From NCBI GenBank assembly GCA_020161265.1, contig JAIUOC010000001.1:1098176-1162175 (forward strand): 64,000 nucleotides of DNA, given 5' to 3'. The position numbers were made by a program, and so were the translations under genes. Below, in pieces: positions 591 to 5,385 of the stretch (the stretch's first letter is position 1; the number at the start of each line of letters is the position of its first letter). Source of the DNA: Chloroflexota bacterium. Lineage in GTDB: Bacteria; Chloroflexota; Chloroflexia; Chloroflexales; Herpetosiphonaceae. The notes under the pieces were generated by a model. The model ran no database searches, was not told where the DNA came from, and saw nothing but the letters and a program-made list of their open reading frames with translations.

Positions 591-1835
591 ATGATGCGAC
601 AGATTGGGCGCTGGACAGGCTTAGCAGTGATCATAGGCATTGCTGCAGGCCTTGCTAGCGCCTTTTTTTTAGTTAGTTTGGCTTGGGTGACCAGCCTGCA
701 AACCAACAACTGGTGGTTATTGCTCAGTTTGCCGTTGCTTGGTGGCGTGGTGACATGGCTCTATCAGCGTTTTGGCACGAGCGTGGCGGCGGGCAATAAT
801 CTGATCATTGAACAACTGCATAACCCTGATTCGGCGGGAATTCCCTTACGCATGGCTCCGTTGGTGTTGCTCGGAACCTTGTTGACCCATCTTGGTGGTG
901 GCTCAGCTGGGCGCGAAGGGACGGCAGTGCAAATGGGCGCGAGTTTGGCAGCGCGAATTGGGTGTTGGTGGCGCTTGCCCCAAGCTGAATGGCGCTTAGT
1001 AGTGATGATGGGCATCAGCGCAGGGTTTAGTAGCGTCTTTGGCACGCCGATTGCCGGCACAATTTTCGCCATGGAAGTGCTGGCATTTGGCGTTTTGCGC
1101 TACGAAGCGTTATTACCATGTTTGGTGGCAGCCTTGGTTGGCGATGGGGTGGTGCGTTGGCTAAATGTTGCGCATAGTCATTATCATGTGGCCGATGTGC
1201 CCGATTTGAGCATGATCTGGGCGATTTTAGTTGGAGCAGGAATTTGCTTTGGCTTAGCTAGCAGTGCCTTTGCGATCTGGACTGAATTGGTACAAACGTG
1301 GTCACGGCGTTGGTTGCCCAACCCAATTTTTCGGGCAATGGCTGGCGGTGGGCTGATTGTAGGTATTAGCTTTTTGTTGAATACTCGTGATTACAATGGG
1401 CTAAGTTTGCCGTTGTTGGCGCAGGCTTTCGAACCAAAAGGCGTTGTATTTTGGGCTTTTGCGCTCAAATTATTATTAACTGGCTTGACCTTGGGCGTGG
1501 GCTTTAAAGGTGGCGAAGTAACGCCATTGTTTGTGATTGGCGCGACGCTTGGCTCAGCTTTAGCCCCATTATTTGGTGTGCCAACTGATTTGTTGGCGGC
1601 ATTGGGCTTTATTGCAGTGTTTGCCGGGGCTGCTAATACCCCGATTGCTTGTGTTTTGATGGGAGTTGAATTATTTGGCTCGGCTTTGCTTGGGCCTTTG
1701 ATGCTCACAACCTGCATTGCCTACGCTATTTCGGGCCATCGCGGAATTTACGCAGCCCAACGGGTTGGCTTAGCCAAACGCCAGCATTTGGCACATCAAA
1801 CTGGCAAGCGGCTTGATCAACTGGATGCTGATTAA
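591..1835 (+). CDS. CLC-family antiporter, probably fluoride-exporting CLC-F type
   Basis: A 414-residue membrane protein with the CLC fold and about ten hydrophobic helices. CLC signatures are present: GREGT at residues 107-111, a helix reading GFSSVFGTPIAGTIFAMEV near 145-163, and GFKGGEVTP near 304. In chloride CLCs the ion-binding loop reads GSGIP and the glutamate motif GREGP. Here the first is GNNLI (68-72) and the second GREGT, which from memory of the family are features of the fluoride/proton antiporter branch. The predicted role is expulsion of cytoplasmic fluoride. There are no C-terminal CBS domains. The start is ATG with AAGGAA upstream; ATG 594 is an alternative. No convincing fluoride riboswitch is visible upstream. 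Its stop codon abuts the terminator of the oppositely transcribed RNA gene. Confidence 0.85.
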   Translation: MMRQIGRWTGLAVIIGIAAGLASAFFLVSLAWVTSLQTNNWWLLLSLPLLGGVVTWLYQRFGTSVAAGNNLIIEQLHNPDSAGIPLRMAPLVLLGTLLTHLGGGSAGREGTAVQMGASLAARIGCWWRLPQAEWRLVVMMGISAGFSSVFGTPIAGTIFAMEVLAFGVLRYEALLPCLVAALVGDGVVRWLNVAHSHYHVADVPDLSMIWAILVGAGICFGLASSAFAIWTELVQTWSRRWLPNPIFRAMAGGGLIVGISFLLNTRDYNGLSLPLLAQAFEPKGVVFWAFALKLLLTGLTLGVGFKGGEVTPLFVIGATLGSALAPLFGVPTDLLAALGFIAVFAGAANTPIACVLMGVELFGSALLGPLMLTTCIAYAISGHRGIYAAQRVGLAKRQHLAHQTGKRLDQLDAD

Positions 1836-1873
1836 AAAAATGAGGCCCGAACTCTAGCCTAGTGTCGGGCCTC
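1834..1873 (-). terminator. Intrinsic terminator of the permuted tRNA-like RNA
   Basis: A 9-bp perfect hairpin stem, GAGGCCCGA/TCGGGCCTC (1865-1873 with 1842-1850), is followed on the minus strand by ATTTTTTT. No T-run follows on the plus strand, so it works for the minus-strand RNA, not for the antiporter gene that ends at 1835. Confidence 0.85.
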
Positions 1874-1932
1874 GGCAGCGCTATTGATTTGCACACATCA
1901 ATACGTTTAAACTATCACGTCAGTCCTAAGAG

Positions 1933-2004
1933 CGCTGGGTTTTTCCATTAAACTACGGCCCCAAAGTTTGGCGGAGCTGGCTAGATTCGAACTAGCATCC
2001 AGCG
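1933..2004 (-). other. Permuted tRNA-like domain 2 with G3-U70 acceptor
   Basis: 3' half: CGCTG anticodon-stem strand (2004-2000), T-arm GCTAG-TTCGAAT-CTAGC (1996-1980), acceptor CAGCTCC (1979-1973), discriminator G, encoded CCA (1971-1969). The linker is AACTTT. 5' half: GGGGCCG (1962-1956), U8-A9, D-arm GTTT/AAAC with loop AATGGAA (1953-1939), then CAGCG (1937-1933). The acceptor has six pairs including G3-U70, and one C6 x A67 mismatch. G3-U70 is the alanyl identity element of tRNA-Ala and tmRNA. The anticodon stem extends through TGATAGT/ACTATCA (1911-1917 with 2014-2020) and TTGATG/CATCAA (1896-1901 with 2028-2033). A competing local hairpin (1882-1903) also exists. Confidence 0.72.
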
Positions 2005-2082
2005 GTATATGCATGATAGTGCTTGACTTGATGTTCAACAGCAAATACTGAATCTAGAGCGATAATCTGAATTTGAGTGGCT

Positions 2083-2161
2083 GTGTTAGCGCCTCTGCCA
2101 ATTGGGCTACCCAGCCTAGGTTGGTGGCTGGGGGAGGATTCGAACCTCCACTTTCTAACAC
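2083..2161 (-). other. Permuted tRNA-like domain 1
   Basis: The 3' half comes first: anticodon-stem strand GTTAG (2159-2155), variable loop AAAGT, T-stem GGAGG/CCTCC with loop TTCGAAT (2149-2133), acceptor strand CCCAGCC (2132-2126), discriminator A and encoded CCA (2124-2122). After the linker ACCTA the 5' half begins: acceptor strand GGCTGGG (2116-2110), U8-A9, D-arm with a GG-containing loop (2107-2091), then CTAAC (2089-2085). All seven acceptor pairs and five anticodon pairs are Watson-Crick, and the latter extends two more pairs. The helix then continues with GCC/GGC (2079-2081 with 2169-2171) and ATTCAG/CTGAAT (2067-2072 with 2173-2178). No anticodon loop exists in the linear RNA. Confidence 0.75.
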
Positions 2162-2217
2162 GACGTTTGCCGATTCAGCTTGAGCTTTAGTCTCAGCTTG
2201 CGCTCTTGCGCAGTGCT

Positions 2218-2246
2218 ATTGTAGGCTAGGTTCCAGGTTTGGGCAA
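2218..2246 (-). promoter_or_regulatory. Sigma-70 type promoter of the permuted tRNA-like RNA
   Basis: On the minus strand there is a -35 box TTGCCC (2241-2246), a 17-bp spacer and a -10 box TACAAT (2218-2223). This predicts transcription starting near 2211, just at the first hairpin of the RNA. Confidence 0.65.
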
Positions 2247-2276
2247 TCGTGCTTTAGGCTGATTCACGCGTGGCTA

Positions 2277-2495
2277 GGGGTCAGGGATCAGGGGCTAGGA
2301 ATCGATAGGGCAATCATGAAGGTTGTTTTGCCACAGATTGGCACAGATTTATTTGATTATGGTTTTGATCCACGAAGCACACGAAGGGGAGTTGGCTATC
2401 GGTTTGATTGTAACATCACAACATGTTCCGATAGCCTATAGCCTATAGCCATAACCTCTGATCCCTGGCCCCTAGCCTCTGACCCCTGCTCGATA
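2277..2495. repeat. Spacer built of dispersed intergenic words (copy 1)
   Basis: Between the RNA promoter and the glycosyltransferase gene lie short words that recur in other spacers of this window. They are variants of GGGATCAGGGGCTAGG, the CACGAAG word before 2395, repeated GATAGCCTATAGCC near 2430-2450, and again CCCTGGCCCCTAGCC near 2462-2490. The last block runs into the glycosyltransferase gene and supplies its stop codon. No gene is seen here. Confidence 0.6.
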
Positions 2496-3617
2496 CAACT
2501 CAAAAGTACGTTGCAACATTGTTTGCAATTCAAATTGCTGTTGAATGCGTTGGCGAGCAGCTTGGCGACAGGCTTGATTTAATGATTGATCGCTGAGCAT
2601 ACGCCCAATTGACTGCGCCAGCGCAACACTTTGGCCTGGCTCAACCAATAGACCTTGGATTCCATCGCTGATTGCTTCGCGTGTGCCGTCGGTGCTGCTG
2701 GCAACAATTGCTTGCCCACTGGCCATGGCTTCGAGCAAGGCAAACGATAAGCCTTCGTACAGCGATGGCAAGACAAAAACATCAAGCGCGGCCAATGCAG
2801 CAGGCATATTGGCTTGCTGGCCAACAAAATGAATCTGCTGCGACTTTGGTAGTTGTTGGGCAGCTTGGCGTAATTCGTCAGCTAAATCGCCCTCACCAAT
2901 TAATGCGACATGCAGATTCGGCTGCGCTTGCCACAGCTTTGGTAAGGCCTCGAATAAAATTTGGTGGCCTTTTTGGCGGCTCAAACGGCCAACCACGCCT
3001 AAAAGTGGTACATCGGCGGGAATTTGCCACGCTGCACGAGTCGCAGGATCACGCGGTTGCGGCTGCCAGCGCTGGCTATCAACCGCATTATAAATTGTGT
3101 GTAAACGCCGCTTAGGAAAACCAAATTGCTCCAATAACAATTGAGCATTGCCTTGCGAAACCGCGATGCCAGCGTGCAAAGTGGCGTATTGCCAACGCCG
3201 ATTGAGCAGCCGTAGATGGTGGGAAAGCCAATTGAAGCGCGGAATTGGCGTGACCAATTGGAAGGTGATAACTCGGCGTGGCACTCGCGCCAATGCTGCA
3301 CCCAATACCAATTCTGCGGCACGGCGCGGCGAGGGCACAACAAAATGCACAATATCAGGCCGTAATTGGCGAAAAAGCTGCACCGCTTGATTGACTGCCT
3401 TCAGTGATAACCCATGTTCGTGCACTACATCCAAGGTTGCGATGCTCGCTCCATGGGCTTTGGCTCGATCAATCAAGGGTTGGGTGGCTGGGCGCGGCGG
3501 CAGCAACAAGCCAAGCTCAAACTGCTGTTGATCGGCATTGAGCAGCAGGGTTTCTAAATAGCCCTCGGCTCCGCCAAGGGCTGTACTATCGCTAACAAAC
3601 CAGAGTCGCTGTTTCAC
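2472..3617 (-). CDS. Glycosyltransferase family 4 (GT-B), last gene of the glycan operon
   Basis: A 381-residue GT-B enzyme of the GT4 type, which transfers a sugar from a nucleotide-sugar donor with retention. The N-terminal Rossmann half opens with LWFVSDSTALGGAEGYLETL, where GGAE is the acceptor-side loop typical of GT4. The C-terminal half has VGRLSRQKGHQ and the donor-binding stretch FVLPSLYEGLSFALLEAMA with the EX7E glutamates. The GTG start overlaps the preceding methyltransferase stop by 4 nt (GTGA), showing translational coupling. The last residues (GVRG) and the TAG stop are encoded by a dispersed intergenic repeat word, so the original C-terminus may have been different. Acceptor and sugar cannot be told from sequence. 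Confidence 0.88.
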   Translation of the reverse strand: MKQRLWFVSDSTALGGAEGYLETLLLNADQQQFELGLLLPPRPATQPLIDRAKAHGASIATLDVVHEHGLSLKAVNQAVQLFRQLRPDIVHFVVPSPRRAAELVLGAALARVPRRVITFQLVTPIPRFNWLSHHLRLLNRRWQYATLHAGIAVSQGNAQLLLEQFGFPKRRLHTIYNAVDSQRWQPQPRDPATRAAWQIPADVPLLGVVGRLSRQKGHQILFEALPKLWQAQPNLHVALIGEGDLADELRQAAQQLPKSQQIHFVGQQANMPAALAALDVFVLPSLYEGLSFALLEAMASGQAIVASSTDGTREAISDGIQGLLVEPGQSVALAQSIGRMLSDQSLNQACRQAARQRIQQQFELQTMLQRTFELYRAGVRG

Positions 3618-4407: not shown

Positions 4408-5385
4408 TTAATAAAGGCTGGTAACTGCTTGCGATAATTCGGCCAGATCGACGGTAGCCGTGCCAACTTTGCCCACCACAATTCCAGCTGCCAGATTGGC
4501 CAATTGCATGGCATGCTCCAAACTACTGCCACTGGCTAATGCCAAGGCCAAAATTGCCACAACCGTATCGCCTGCTCCAGTGACATCGTAAACGTTGCGG
4601 GCATGGGTTGGCAAAAAGACTGGGGCATGGTCGTTGCGATAGAGCGCCATGCCATCAGCGCTGCGGGTAATGATCAGCGCTGCGCCTTGCAGCAAATCCA
4701 ACAATTGATCAGCAGCATGGTGCAGTTGTTCAAGCGTTTGTAGGCTTAGCCCTGTTACAACTTGGGTTTCTTGCAGATTGGGCGTAATAACGCTGGCTTG
4801 GGCATAGCGCTGATAATTGATGCCCTTGGGATCAACCACCACCGGAATGTTGTAGTGCCGTGCCTGTTGAATGACATGTTGGCAAACTCGCTCGGTCAGC
4901 ACACCCTTGGCGTAATCTGAGAGAATACAAACCTGGCAATTAGCAATCTGTTGATCAACCCAAGCGCACAGTGCTGCTTCGCTAGCTGCATCAAGCGCCG
5001 TACTGACCTCGCTATCATAGCGCAACATCTGTTGGTTATGGGCGATGATGCGGGTTTTGAGCGTAGTTGGCCGTTGAGCACTGATTAAGCCTGTGCTATC
5101 GGCAACGCCCGCCTGTTGGAGGGCAATTTTGAGTTGTTGGCCCGCCAAATCGTCGCCGATCACCCCGCTAAGCAGCACTTCGGCATTGAGCGCGGCAATG
5201 CTGGCGGCAACATTGCTGGCTCCGCCTGGCCGATAGCTACGCGAACGCACATTGACGATTGGCACTGGCGCTTCGGGCGAAATGCGCGTCACATCGCCCC
5301 AAATATATTCATCGAGCATGACATCGCCAACAATTAAGACCCGTTGTTGGCTTAATTTGGCTAGCGTGGCAGTTAATTCATGCAC
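4408..5385 (-). CDS. rfaE1: D-glycero-beta-D-manno-heptose-7-phosphate kinase (PfkB fold)
   Basis: 325 residues matching the kinase half of HldE/RfaE: VGDVMLDEYIWGDVTRISPEAP near residue 20-40, GGASNVAASIAALN near 54, TTLKTRIIAHNQQMLRYDSE near 107 and the PfkB ATP/anion-hole motif VYDVTGAGDTVVA near 263. It phosphorylates heptose-7-phosphate at O1 on the way to NDP-heptose. The cytidylyl/adenylyltransferase domain of fused HldE is absent, so that step must be encoded elsewhere. It starts with GTG and overlaps the upstream GT9 gene by 8 nt. Its presence beside a heptosyltransferase-like gene argues for a heptose-containing glycan. Another PfkB sugar kinase is the main alternative, but the RISPEAPVPI motif favours RfaE1. 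Confidence 0.85.
   Translation of the reverse strand: MHELTATLAKLSQQRVLIVGDVMLDEYIWGDVTRISPEAPVPIVNVRSRSYRPGGASNVAASIAALNAEVLLSGVIGDDLAGQQLKIALQQAGVADSTGLISAQRPTTLKTRIIAHNQQMLRYDSEVSTALDAASEAALCAWVDQQIANCQVCILSDYAKGVLTERVCQHVIQQARHYNIPVVVDPKGINYQRYAQASVITPNLQETQVVTGLSLQTLEQLHHAADQLLDLLQGAALIITRSADGMALYRNDHAPVFLPTHARNVYDVTGAGDTVVAILALALASGSSLEHAMQLANLAAGIVVGKVGTATVDLAELSQAVTSLY

Follow-up and report, generated by a model that had tools for sequence, protein, structure and literature searches.

A conserved RNA predicted to fold as two circularly permuted tRNA look-alikes keeps company with DUF7873 proteins in bacteria and phages

The window analysed here is a 64,000 nucleotide (nt) stretch from a Chloroflexota bacterium of the Herpetosiphonaceae (assembly GCA_020161265.1, contig JAIUOC010000001.1, positions 1,098,176 to 1,162,175). 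Near its start, positions 2246-1834 of the minus strand read as an RNA gene whose product, about 380 nt long with its 3' hairpin included, is predicted to fold as two circularly permuted transfer RNA (tRNA) look-alikes on linked stems, a prediction confirmed by the comparisons below. An earlier note on this DNA had described such a gene with two permuted tRNA-like domains, and every element that it named is present. The features are listed here with scores from two models, R1 (module 2) and R2 (module 1), which for the window copy are high by construction because the window sequence is in both training sets.

2246-2218, minus strand: promoter-like site, TTGCCC-17-TACAAT, with 9 of 12 matches (shuffles expect 0.6 such sites)
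2217-1834, minus strand: putative non-coding RNA gene, its ends inferred from sequence
2199-2043, minus strand: module 1, stem P1 with a circularly permuted tRNA-like domain on top (R2 133.3 bits; covariation)
2161-2122, minus strand: tRNA 3' half of module 1, with the anticodon-stem 3' strand (2161-2155), the T arm (2149-2133) and the acceptor 3' strand plus ACCA (2132-2122)
2116-2083, minus strand: tRNA 5' half of module 1, with the acceptor 5' strand (2116-2110), UA and D arm (2109-2091) and the anticodon-stem 5' strand (2089-2083)
2068-2055, minus strand: middle segment AGAYUAUYGCUCYA, facing the P1 5' arm, strongly conserved across the alignments and used as a search pattern
2036-1887, minus strand: module 2, helices P3 and P2 with the second circularly permuted tRNA-like domain (R1 131.4 bits; covariation)
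2033-2028, minus strand: 5' strand of P3, pairing with 1901-1896 (6/6 pairs covary, 98.3% of cells paired)
2006-1969, minus strand: tRNA 3' half of module 2, with an anticodon-stem strand (2006-1999), the T arm (1996-1980) and the acceptor 3' strand plus GCCA (1979-1969)
1962-1932, minus strand: tRNA 5' half of module 2, with the acceptor 5' strand (1962-1956), UA and D arm (1955-1939) and an anticodon-stem strand (1939-1932)
1910-1896, minus strand: conserved UUAAACG (1910-1904), in the P3/P2 internal loop, and the 3' strand of P3 (1901-1896)
1873-1834, minus strand: terminator-like 3' hairpin (1873-1842) and T run, with GGCUA in the window's loop, read by eye, where the family has GGNYA

The halves of module 1 are joined by a 5-nt link between ACCA and the acceptor 5' strand. 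The promoter and the strong terminator of the earlier note are present as a promoter-like site and a terminator-like hairpin with T run. The promoter-like site is weak alone, given the number that shuffles produce, but both hexamers are retained in six Herpetosiphon genomes, with a single -35 change in one locus (L022); the 3' hairpin is retained but its T run is missing in two loci (L023 and L025). Directly upstream of the promoter-like site, short GGGGTCAGGGATCAGGGGCTAGG-type repeats in opposite orientations were seen by eye at window positions 2270-2300 and 2440-2485.

The RNA region folds beyond chance (minimum free energy z-score -3.35), and the permuted structure was assessed in two MAFFT alignments that were not fitted to a structure, namely A1, with 20 module 2 sequences, and A2, with 19 of module 1. 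RNAalifold recovered every helix except the anticodon stems, which were added by hand. For module 2, 88.1% of cells are paired and two-sided changes are seen at 36 of 38 pairs (shuffle mean 25.7, 0/500 reaching this count), and for module 1 the figures are 90.2% and 21 of 35 pairs (shuffle mean 13.5, 0/500). Sliding the partner by 1-3 columns, as a control, left 38-44% pairing in module 2 and 36-47% in module 1. The permuted acceptor stem covaries at 7/7 pairs in each module. That the stems pair in permuted order only, as had been claimed, holds for the acceptors of the 17 sequences common to A1 and A2, where 119/119 and 113/119 positions (100% and 95%) pair in permuted order, compared with 73/119 (61%) in ordinary order, i.e., 5' half 1 with 3' half 2, and 76/119 (64%) in the other crossed pairing. 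Uncompensated mutations in homologous loci would have spoken against the structure; the acceptor and anticodon pairings are instead kept through compensatory changes. Covariation in the unfitted alignments thus bears out the two permuted tRNA-like domains and rules out chance resemblance or tRNA pseudogenes.

P3 is a long-range helix that ties the middle segment to the 3' tail. P1 is less well supported, with two-sided variation at 3 of 12 pairs in the unfitted and 7 of 12 in the fitted alignment. The anticodon stems pair in approximately 66% of cells in the unfitted alignments, some of the shortfall coming from rows shifted by a single column, and reach 83% and 82% once refitted to the models, a refit that leans towards the structure. 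These stems run on into P1 and P2/P3, and there is no anticodon loop. Alignment A1 holds 20 of 26 sequences, leaving out L042, L047, L054, L063, L089 and L150, of which the last two are low-scoring so that their omission flatters A1. A2 holds 19 of 24; L042, L054, L063 and L089 were excluded, as was L031, in which P1 looks by eye to be in a different register, and L055 and L066 had been removed beforehand as misaligned. Alignments A4 and A5 were drawn from 35 hand-picked loci, A5 retaining the 31 that pass E 1e-12.

Across the family, three elements that are not part of a tRNA are conserved, namely AGAYUAUYGCUCYA, UUAAACG in the P3/P2 loop and the GGNYA hairpin loop. The last is found in 50/50 hairpins recovered from 51 hand-picked loci, on a stem that varies in sequence (for L079 one base of the stem is counted in); the slice of the window copy was too short for this count. 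The encoded CCA occurs in 5/19 module 1 and 9/20 module 2 sequences, and some acceptors are closed by CUUCGG-type short loops. Furthermore, module 1 reaches no more than 46-56 bits at 21 of the 94 loci, all of them actinobacterial, with its stem kept and its tRNA-like head lost or replaced (L059, L061, L064, L070, L080, L082, L083, L085, L086, L088, L093, L109, L117, L119, L126, L128, L130, L137, L152, L156 and L157), and all or most of module 2 remains. P3 and the stems linking the modules, AGAYUAUYGCUCYA, the GGNYA loop and the occurrence of the family outside Chloroflexota all go beyond the earlier note.

The RNA is present in all six Herpetosiphon genomes examined (a genus assignment to which the 98% identical protein P0003 contributes), with 93-99% identity to the window copy in the five others, and is 68-71% identical in three genomes from other families of the order (G016, G011 and G046). 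The whole two-module RNA also lies, unannotated, near tRNA genes in the phages NiceHouse (Rhodococcus) and Racecar (Arthrobacter). A search with the middle-segment pattern AGAYTATYGCTCYANNNTNAGNA matched 17 viral and 101 genome contigs; 89 of these 118 have a module 2 (R1) match at E 0.01 or better, and the remaining 29, taken to match the pattern by chance, were not retained. The 89 are mostly from Streptomyces, with others from Micromonosporaceae, Actinomadura, Nocardia, Glycomyces, Planomonospora, Herpetosiphon and one Anaerolineae metagenome-assembled genome. As such, the family extends beyond Chloroflexota to many actinomycetes and phages. No match on the RNA was returned in the window by ARAGORN or by Rfam at gathering cut-offs, and Rfam at gathering found no family on it in nine other loci. 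A literature search, which considered top-ranked matches and covered few subscription journals, gave no description of the RNA in Streptomyces, Actinobacteria, Chloroflexi or phages.

For genome surveys the RNA was counted as present only when a match spanned R1 model positions 1-148. Searches over 40 genomes were run with stricter filters, and Actinomycetota R1 matches were listed only at E 1e-7 or better. The Chloroflexota sample includes six Herpetosiphon genomes, and the genomes on which the samples are centred, G000 (the source of the window) and G223, both carry the RNA. A model search of Chloroflexota genomes, as the earlier note had proposed, finds the full-length RNA in 12/181. Two genomes were counted despite a weak score, G149 (44.1 bits) and G011 (33.6 bits; the G011 locus itself scores 95.9). 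Partial matches alone (E 0.001 or better) were found in 46 more Chloroflexota genomes, mostly over positions 41-97, resembling those from ordinary tRNA neighbours, with a maximum of 42.4 bits (G218, positions 25-116); G255 likewise has a partial match (46.8 bits, positions 37-98).

The companion of the RNA is the protein family DUF7873 (PF25283), whose gene lies directly upstream of the RNA in both NiceHouse and Racecar. The genome of the window encodes a member at 393.7 bits (C1:172111-172836, outside the window; Pfam cut-off 27 bits), and DUF7873 was above cut-off in all of the first nine genomes known to have the RNA and absent from G007, which has no full-length RNA match. Among 379 sampled genomes, 18 have both RNA (full-length module 2 matches) and DUF7873 and 361 have neither: the same 12/181 Chloroflexota and the same 6/198 Actinomycetota carry each. 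DUF7873 is in 0/47 of the genomes with partial matches only (the 46 Chloroflexota and G255).

At 88 of 94 RNA loci the DUF7873 gene is just upstream on the same strand, with a gap of 137-399 nt between the gene and the module 2 start (84 loci). Four of the six loci without an adjacent gene are from Herpetosiphon (L072, L077, L081 and L153), where the gene is elsewhere in the genome (G002, G001, G004 and G005); the other two (L108 and L047) are slices with just 144 or 217 nt of upstream sequence, and in a longer slice of the L047 contig (L243) the gene precedes the RNA. This company is not merely a by-product of adjacency, because in the genome of the window the gene is approximately 0.93 Mb from the RNA (C1:172111 vs C1:1100009). 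The two are unlinked yet both retained in six Herpetosiphon genomes, and lie on different contigs in the draft genomes G135 and G149. Since many loci are near-duplicates, these counts are not independent events. Possible extra copies of the RNA were also seen, with full-length module 2 matches at 3443-3591, 4603-4745 and 4971-5113 downstream of a single DUF7873 gene in L253, and a second full-length module 2 match in G135 (C3 and C5).

DUF7873 was found in 73 of 50,697 named phages and in 236 viral stretches. Full-length module 2 scores at least 50 bits in 74 of the best 80 of these 236 viral loci, with the RNA on the other strand in L260 and upstream of the gene in L254; the remaining six comprise one cut at a contig end, two that look degenerate and three without the RNA. 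Seven distant phages were examined individually, two of Gordonia and one each of Pseudanabaena, Microcoleus, Rhizobium, Vibrio and Klebsiella, and in 7/7 the gene is followed downstream by permuted tRNA-like matches. Match strength is high for Gordonia and Pseudanabaena and moderate for Klebsiella and for Microcoleus, in which the distance is about 1.8 kb. Rhizobium and Vibrio give weak matches, with one module that convinces by eye. In the Vibrio phage the match (27.6 bits, positions 31-113) is no stronger than partial matches discounted elsewhere and was accepted by eye because its acceptor halves pair and it follows DUF7873.

In one search, 7,435 of 7,999 scored candidates are DUF7873 homologs at E 0.001 or better, and the 27 other proteins in alignment A3 share 49-81% identity with the Herpetosiphon protein, phages being lowest. 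The 120 homologs listed are named hypothetical, uncharacterised or DUF7873, apart from one Kibdelosporangium protein (P0061) publicly named ornithine carbamoyltransferase, apparently a misannotation. The predicted fold (predicted local distance difference test score 89.2, predicted template modelling score 0.63) has no convincing relative, and TROVE, the Ro60 domain, is not among the matches listed, which excludes nothing. A PDB sequence search with A3 found no relative, and two phage DUF7873 proteins matched nothing in NCBIfam and one weak unnamed family in PHROGs. The term 'DUF7873' was not found in the literature searched, which covered few subscription journals.

Given these findings, we put at about even the chance that this conserved RNA is the RNA half of a ribonucleoprotein particle (RNP) with DUF7873, its two tRNA-like heads baiting enzymes that grip the tRNA elbow. 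DUF7873 would bind the RNA, probably at AGAYUAUYGCUCYA, the P3/P2 internal loop with UUAAACG and the GGNYA loop, because these conserved non-tRNA parts persist where the module 1 head is lost. Charging and decoding are unlikely as the general job of the heads, and the T-loop/D-loop elbow remains, because the CCA is not conserved and the anticodon stem continues into other helices without an anticodon loop; on the same grounds the heads would act via that elbow and not via an amino acid or codon. The permutation itself may follow from geometry, since a tRNA mimic suspended from its anticodon stem, where the ends of the RNA lie, must run T arm, acceptor, D arm. In the bacterial Y RNA YrlA, PNPase binds to the tRNA-like domain, which TruB and DusA modify, and Ro60 binds to the stem (passages in PMC8394870). 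By analogy, DUF7873 would hold on to conserved stems as well as loops, and the heads may recruit a nuclease or tRNA-modifying enzyme to whatever DUF7873 holds. Somewhat short of an even chance is the fuller proposal that RNA and DUF7873 form an undescribed RNP class, spread over two or more bacterial phyla and phages of several others, whose RNA uses both elbows simultaneously, for instance to clamp a dimeric tRNA-handling enzyme or bridge two, without Ro60, charging or decoding.

It is unlikely, although worth weighing, that the heads are free decoys which sequester enzymes that cut or modify tRNAs and thereby protect the real tRNAs (against host defence, in the case of phages), with DUF7873 only stabilising the RNA. 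Several phages carry the RNA among tRNA genes, both elbows are kept and the CCA is free to vary, as a decoy would allow, and YrlA has been suggested as a possible competitive inhibitor of an anticodon nuclease (a passage in PMC7790460). However, there is no anticodon loop to imitate the cut site of an anticodon nuclease, and a well conserved DUF7873 together with a module 1 head that can be lost looks particle-like rather than sponge-like.

More doubtful still is that the RNA is a strict bacterial Y RNA, namely a double YrlA that would link bound Ro60 to a nuclease. With permissive settings the Rfam YrlA family (RF02553) covers each module over its whole length, at 25.3 and 22.1 bits, and reaches 31.4 bits at best, in L028; these scores are far under the gathering cut-off of 69. 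A Ro60/TROVE gene approximately 4 kb away in this genome and the YrlA-like topology favoured Ro60 as an obligate partner, and TROVE is in 7/10 RNA-bearing genomes of a separate search. This candidate was ruled out by the phyletic pattern: TROVE is in 10/181 Chloroflexota, comprising just six of the 12 genomes with the RNA (all Herpetosiphon) and four without a full-length match, and in G001 it is approximately 141 kb from the RNA. Ro60 is therefore not the constant partner of the RNA, although it could use the RNA in some hosts. Furthermore, three other tRNA-like RNAs lie right upstream of the Ro60 gene (L002 6595-8193), at L002 5756-5887, 6046-6177 and 6349-6456 on the plus strand, outside the window. 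They are in ordinary order with long anticodon-arm inserts (108-132 nt; Rfam tRNA 43-53 bits) and drew no call from a default ARAGORN run; similar long tRNA matches occur near TROVE in five other Herpetosiphon genomes and G007, and these RNAs may be the Ro60-bound Y RNAs of Herpetosiphon. Text similar to the GGGGTCAGGGATCAGGGGCTAGG-type repeats was seen by eye between them. Separately, among 14 control genomes Deinobacterium chartae alone has TROVE, and it alone has DUF7873.

The RNA could also be a cis-acting 3' element of the DUF7873 mRNA, serving autoregulation and not existing as a free RNA. Its regular place and spacing behind the gene on the same strand would fit, but we consider this very unlikely, as the Herpetosiphon RNA is far from the gene, has its own promoter-like site and 3' hairpin and is nevertheless closely conserved among congeners, and gene and RNA are on separate contigs in two drafts. 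A toxin-antitoxin pair, with the RNA as antitoxin to DUF7873 in the manner of type III systems, is a shade less probable again. RNA and protein are paired, and DUF7873 is found on phages and, by protein search of a plasmid collection, on four Streptomyces/Nonomuraea replicons. In known type III systems the RNA is 5' of the gene. Here it is 3', DUF7873 is conserved across two phyla and unlinked from the RNA in six Herpetosiphon genomes, and no nuclease family was matched in the two phage DUF7873 proteins scanned. Lastly, the earlier note's reading, in which 3' processing leaves three helix-held pieces with CCA ends charged with amino acids, is hardly credible as a general function: both CCA ends are encoded in the window, but the encoded CCA is not a feature of the family, whose acceptors may be closed by short loops.

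These results give a common protein family without known function an RNA companion, and with it a testable function. They also show that permuted tRNA mimicry in bacteria has a second form that is two-headed, widespread and untied to Ro60, and laboratory Streptomyces and their phages would open the RNA to genetics.

Among known systems, the permuted two-piece transfer-messenger RNA (tmRNA; RF04321) is similar in that the acceptor and T arm come ahead of the 5' half in the gene, but the RNA in the window gives only a partial match to it (15 bits vs a cut-off of 47). One-piece tmRNA (RF00023) has no gathering-level match in the window. The partial match and the presence of an ordinary tmRNA elsewhere in 10/10 genomes tested rule out a tmRNA identity, and to our knowledge tmRNA has no second tRNA-like domain. 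A protein-coding reading of the middle segment was set aside: by eye a frame is partly kept in the alignment, but the conservation is that of the nucleotides and part of the segment pairs. The permuted tRNA genes of algae and archaea, which place the 3' half before the 5' half and yield a working tRNA with anticodon and CCA, share the order of halves with our RNA. They differ in that joining the halves here gives no anticodon loop, the stems continuing into P1 and P2/P3, and in that the CCA end is not conserved.

YrlA (RF02553; structure 6CU1) is closest in architecture, with a stem topped by a circularly permuted tRNA-like module with D, T and acceptor arms, and bacterial Y RNA superposes on tRNA with circular permutation, as described in part of PMC11472068. 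Permuted tRNA mimicry in bacteria is consequently not new, and the precedents listed in the earlier note, which omitted YrlA, need widening; nor is the RNA confined to Chloroflexota. However, YrlA has one module of approximately 90-150 nt and Ro60 as its partner (part of PMC8394870), compared with two modules, approximately 380 nt and DUF7873 here, and its Rfam consensus is without the conserved segments and GGNYA hairpin of this RNA. The RNA shares with YrlA the permuted module on a closing stem, and falls below the 69-bit gathering score and outside constant company with Ro60/TROVE. As far as Rfam and the literature searches show, the two tandem heads, the company of DUF7873 and the phyletic range are new, and there is a fair chance that the RNA is a class of its own.

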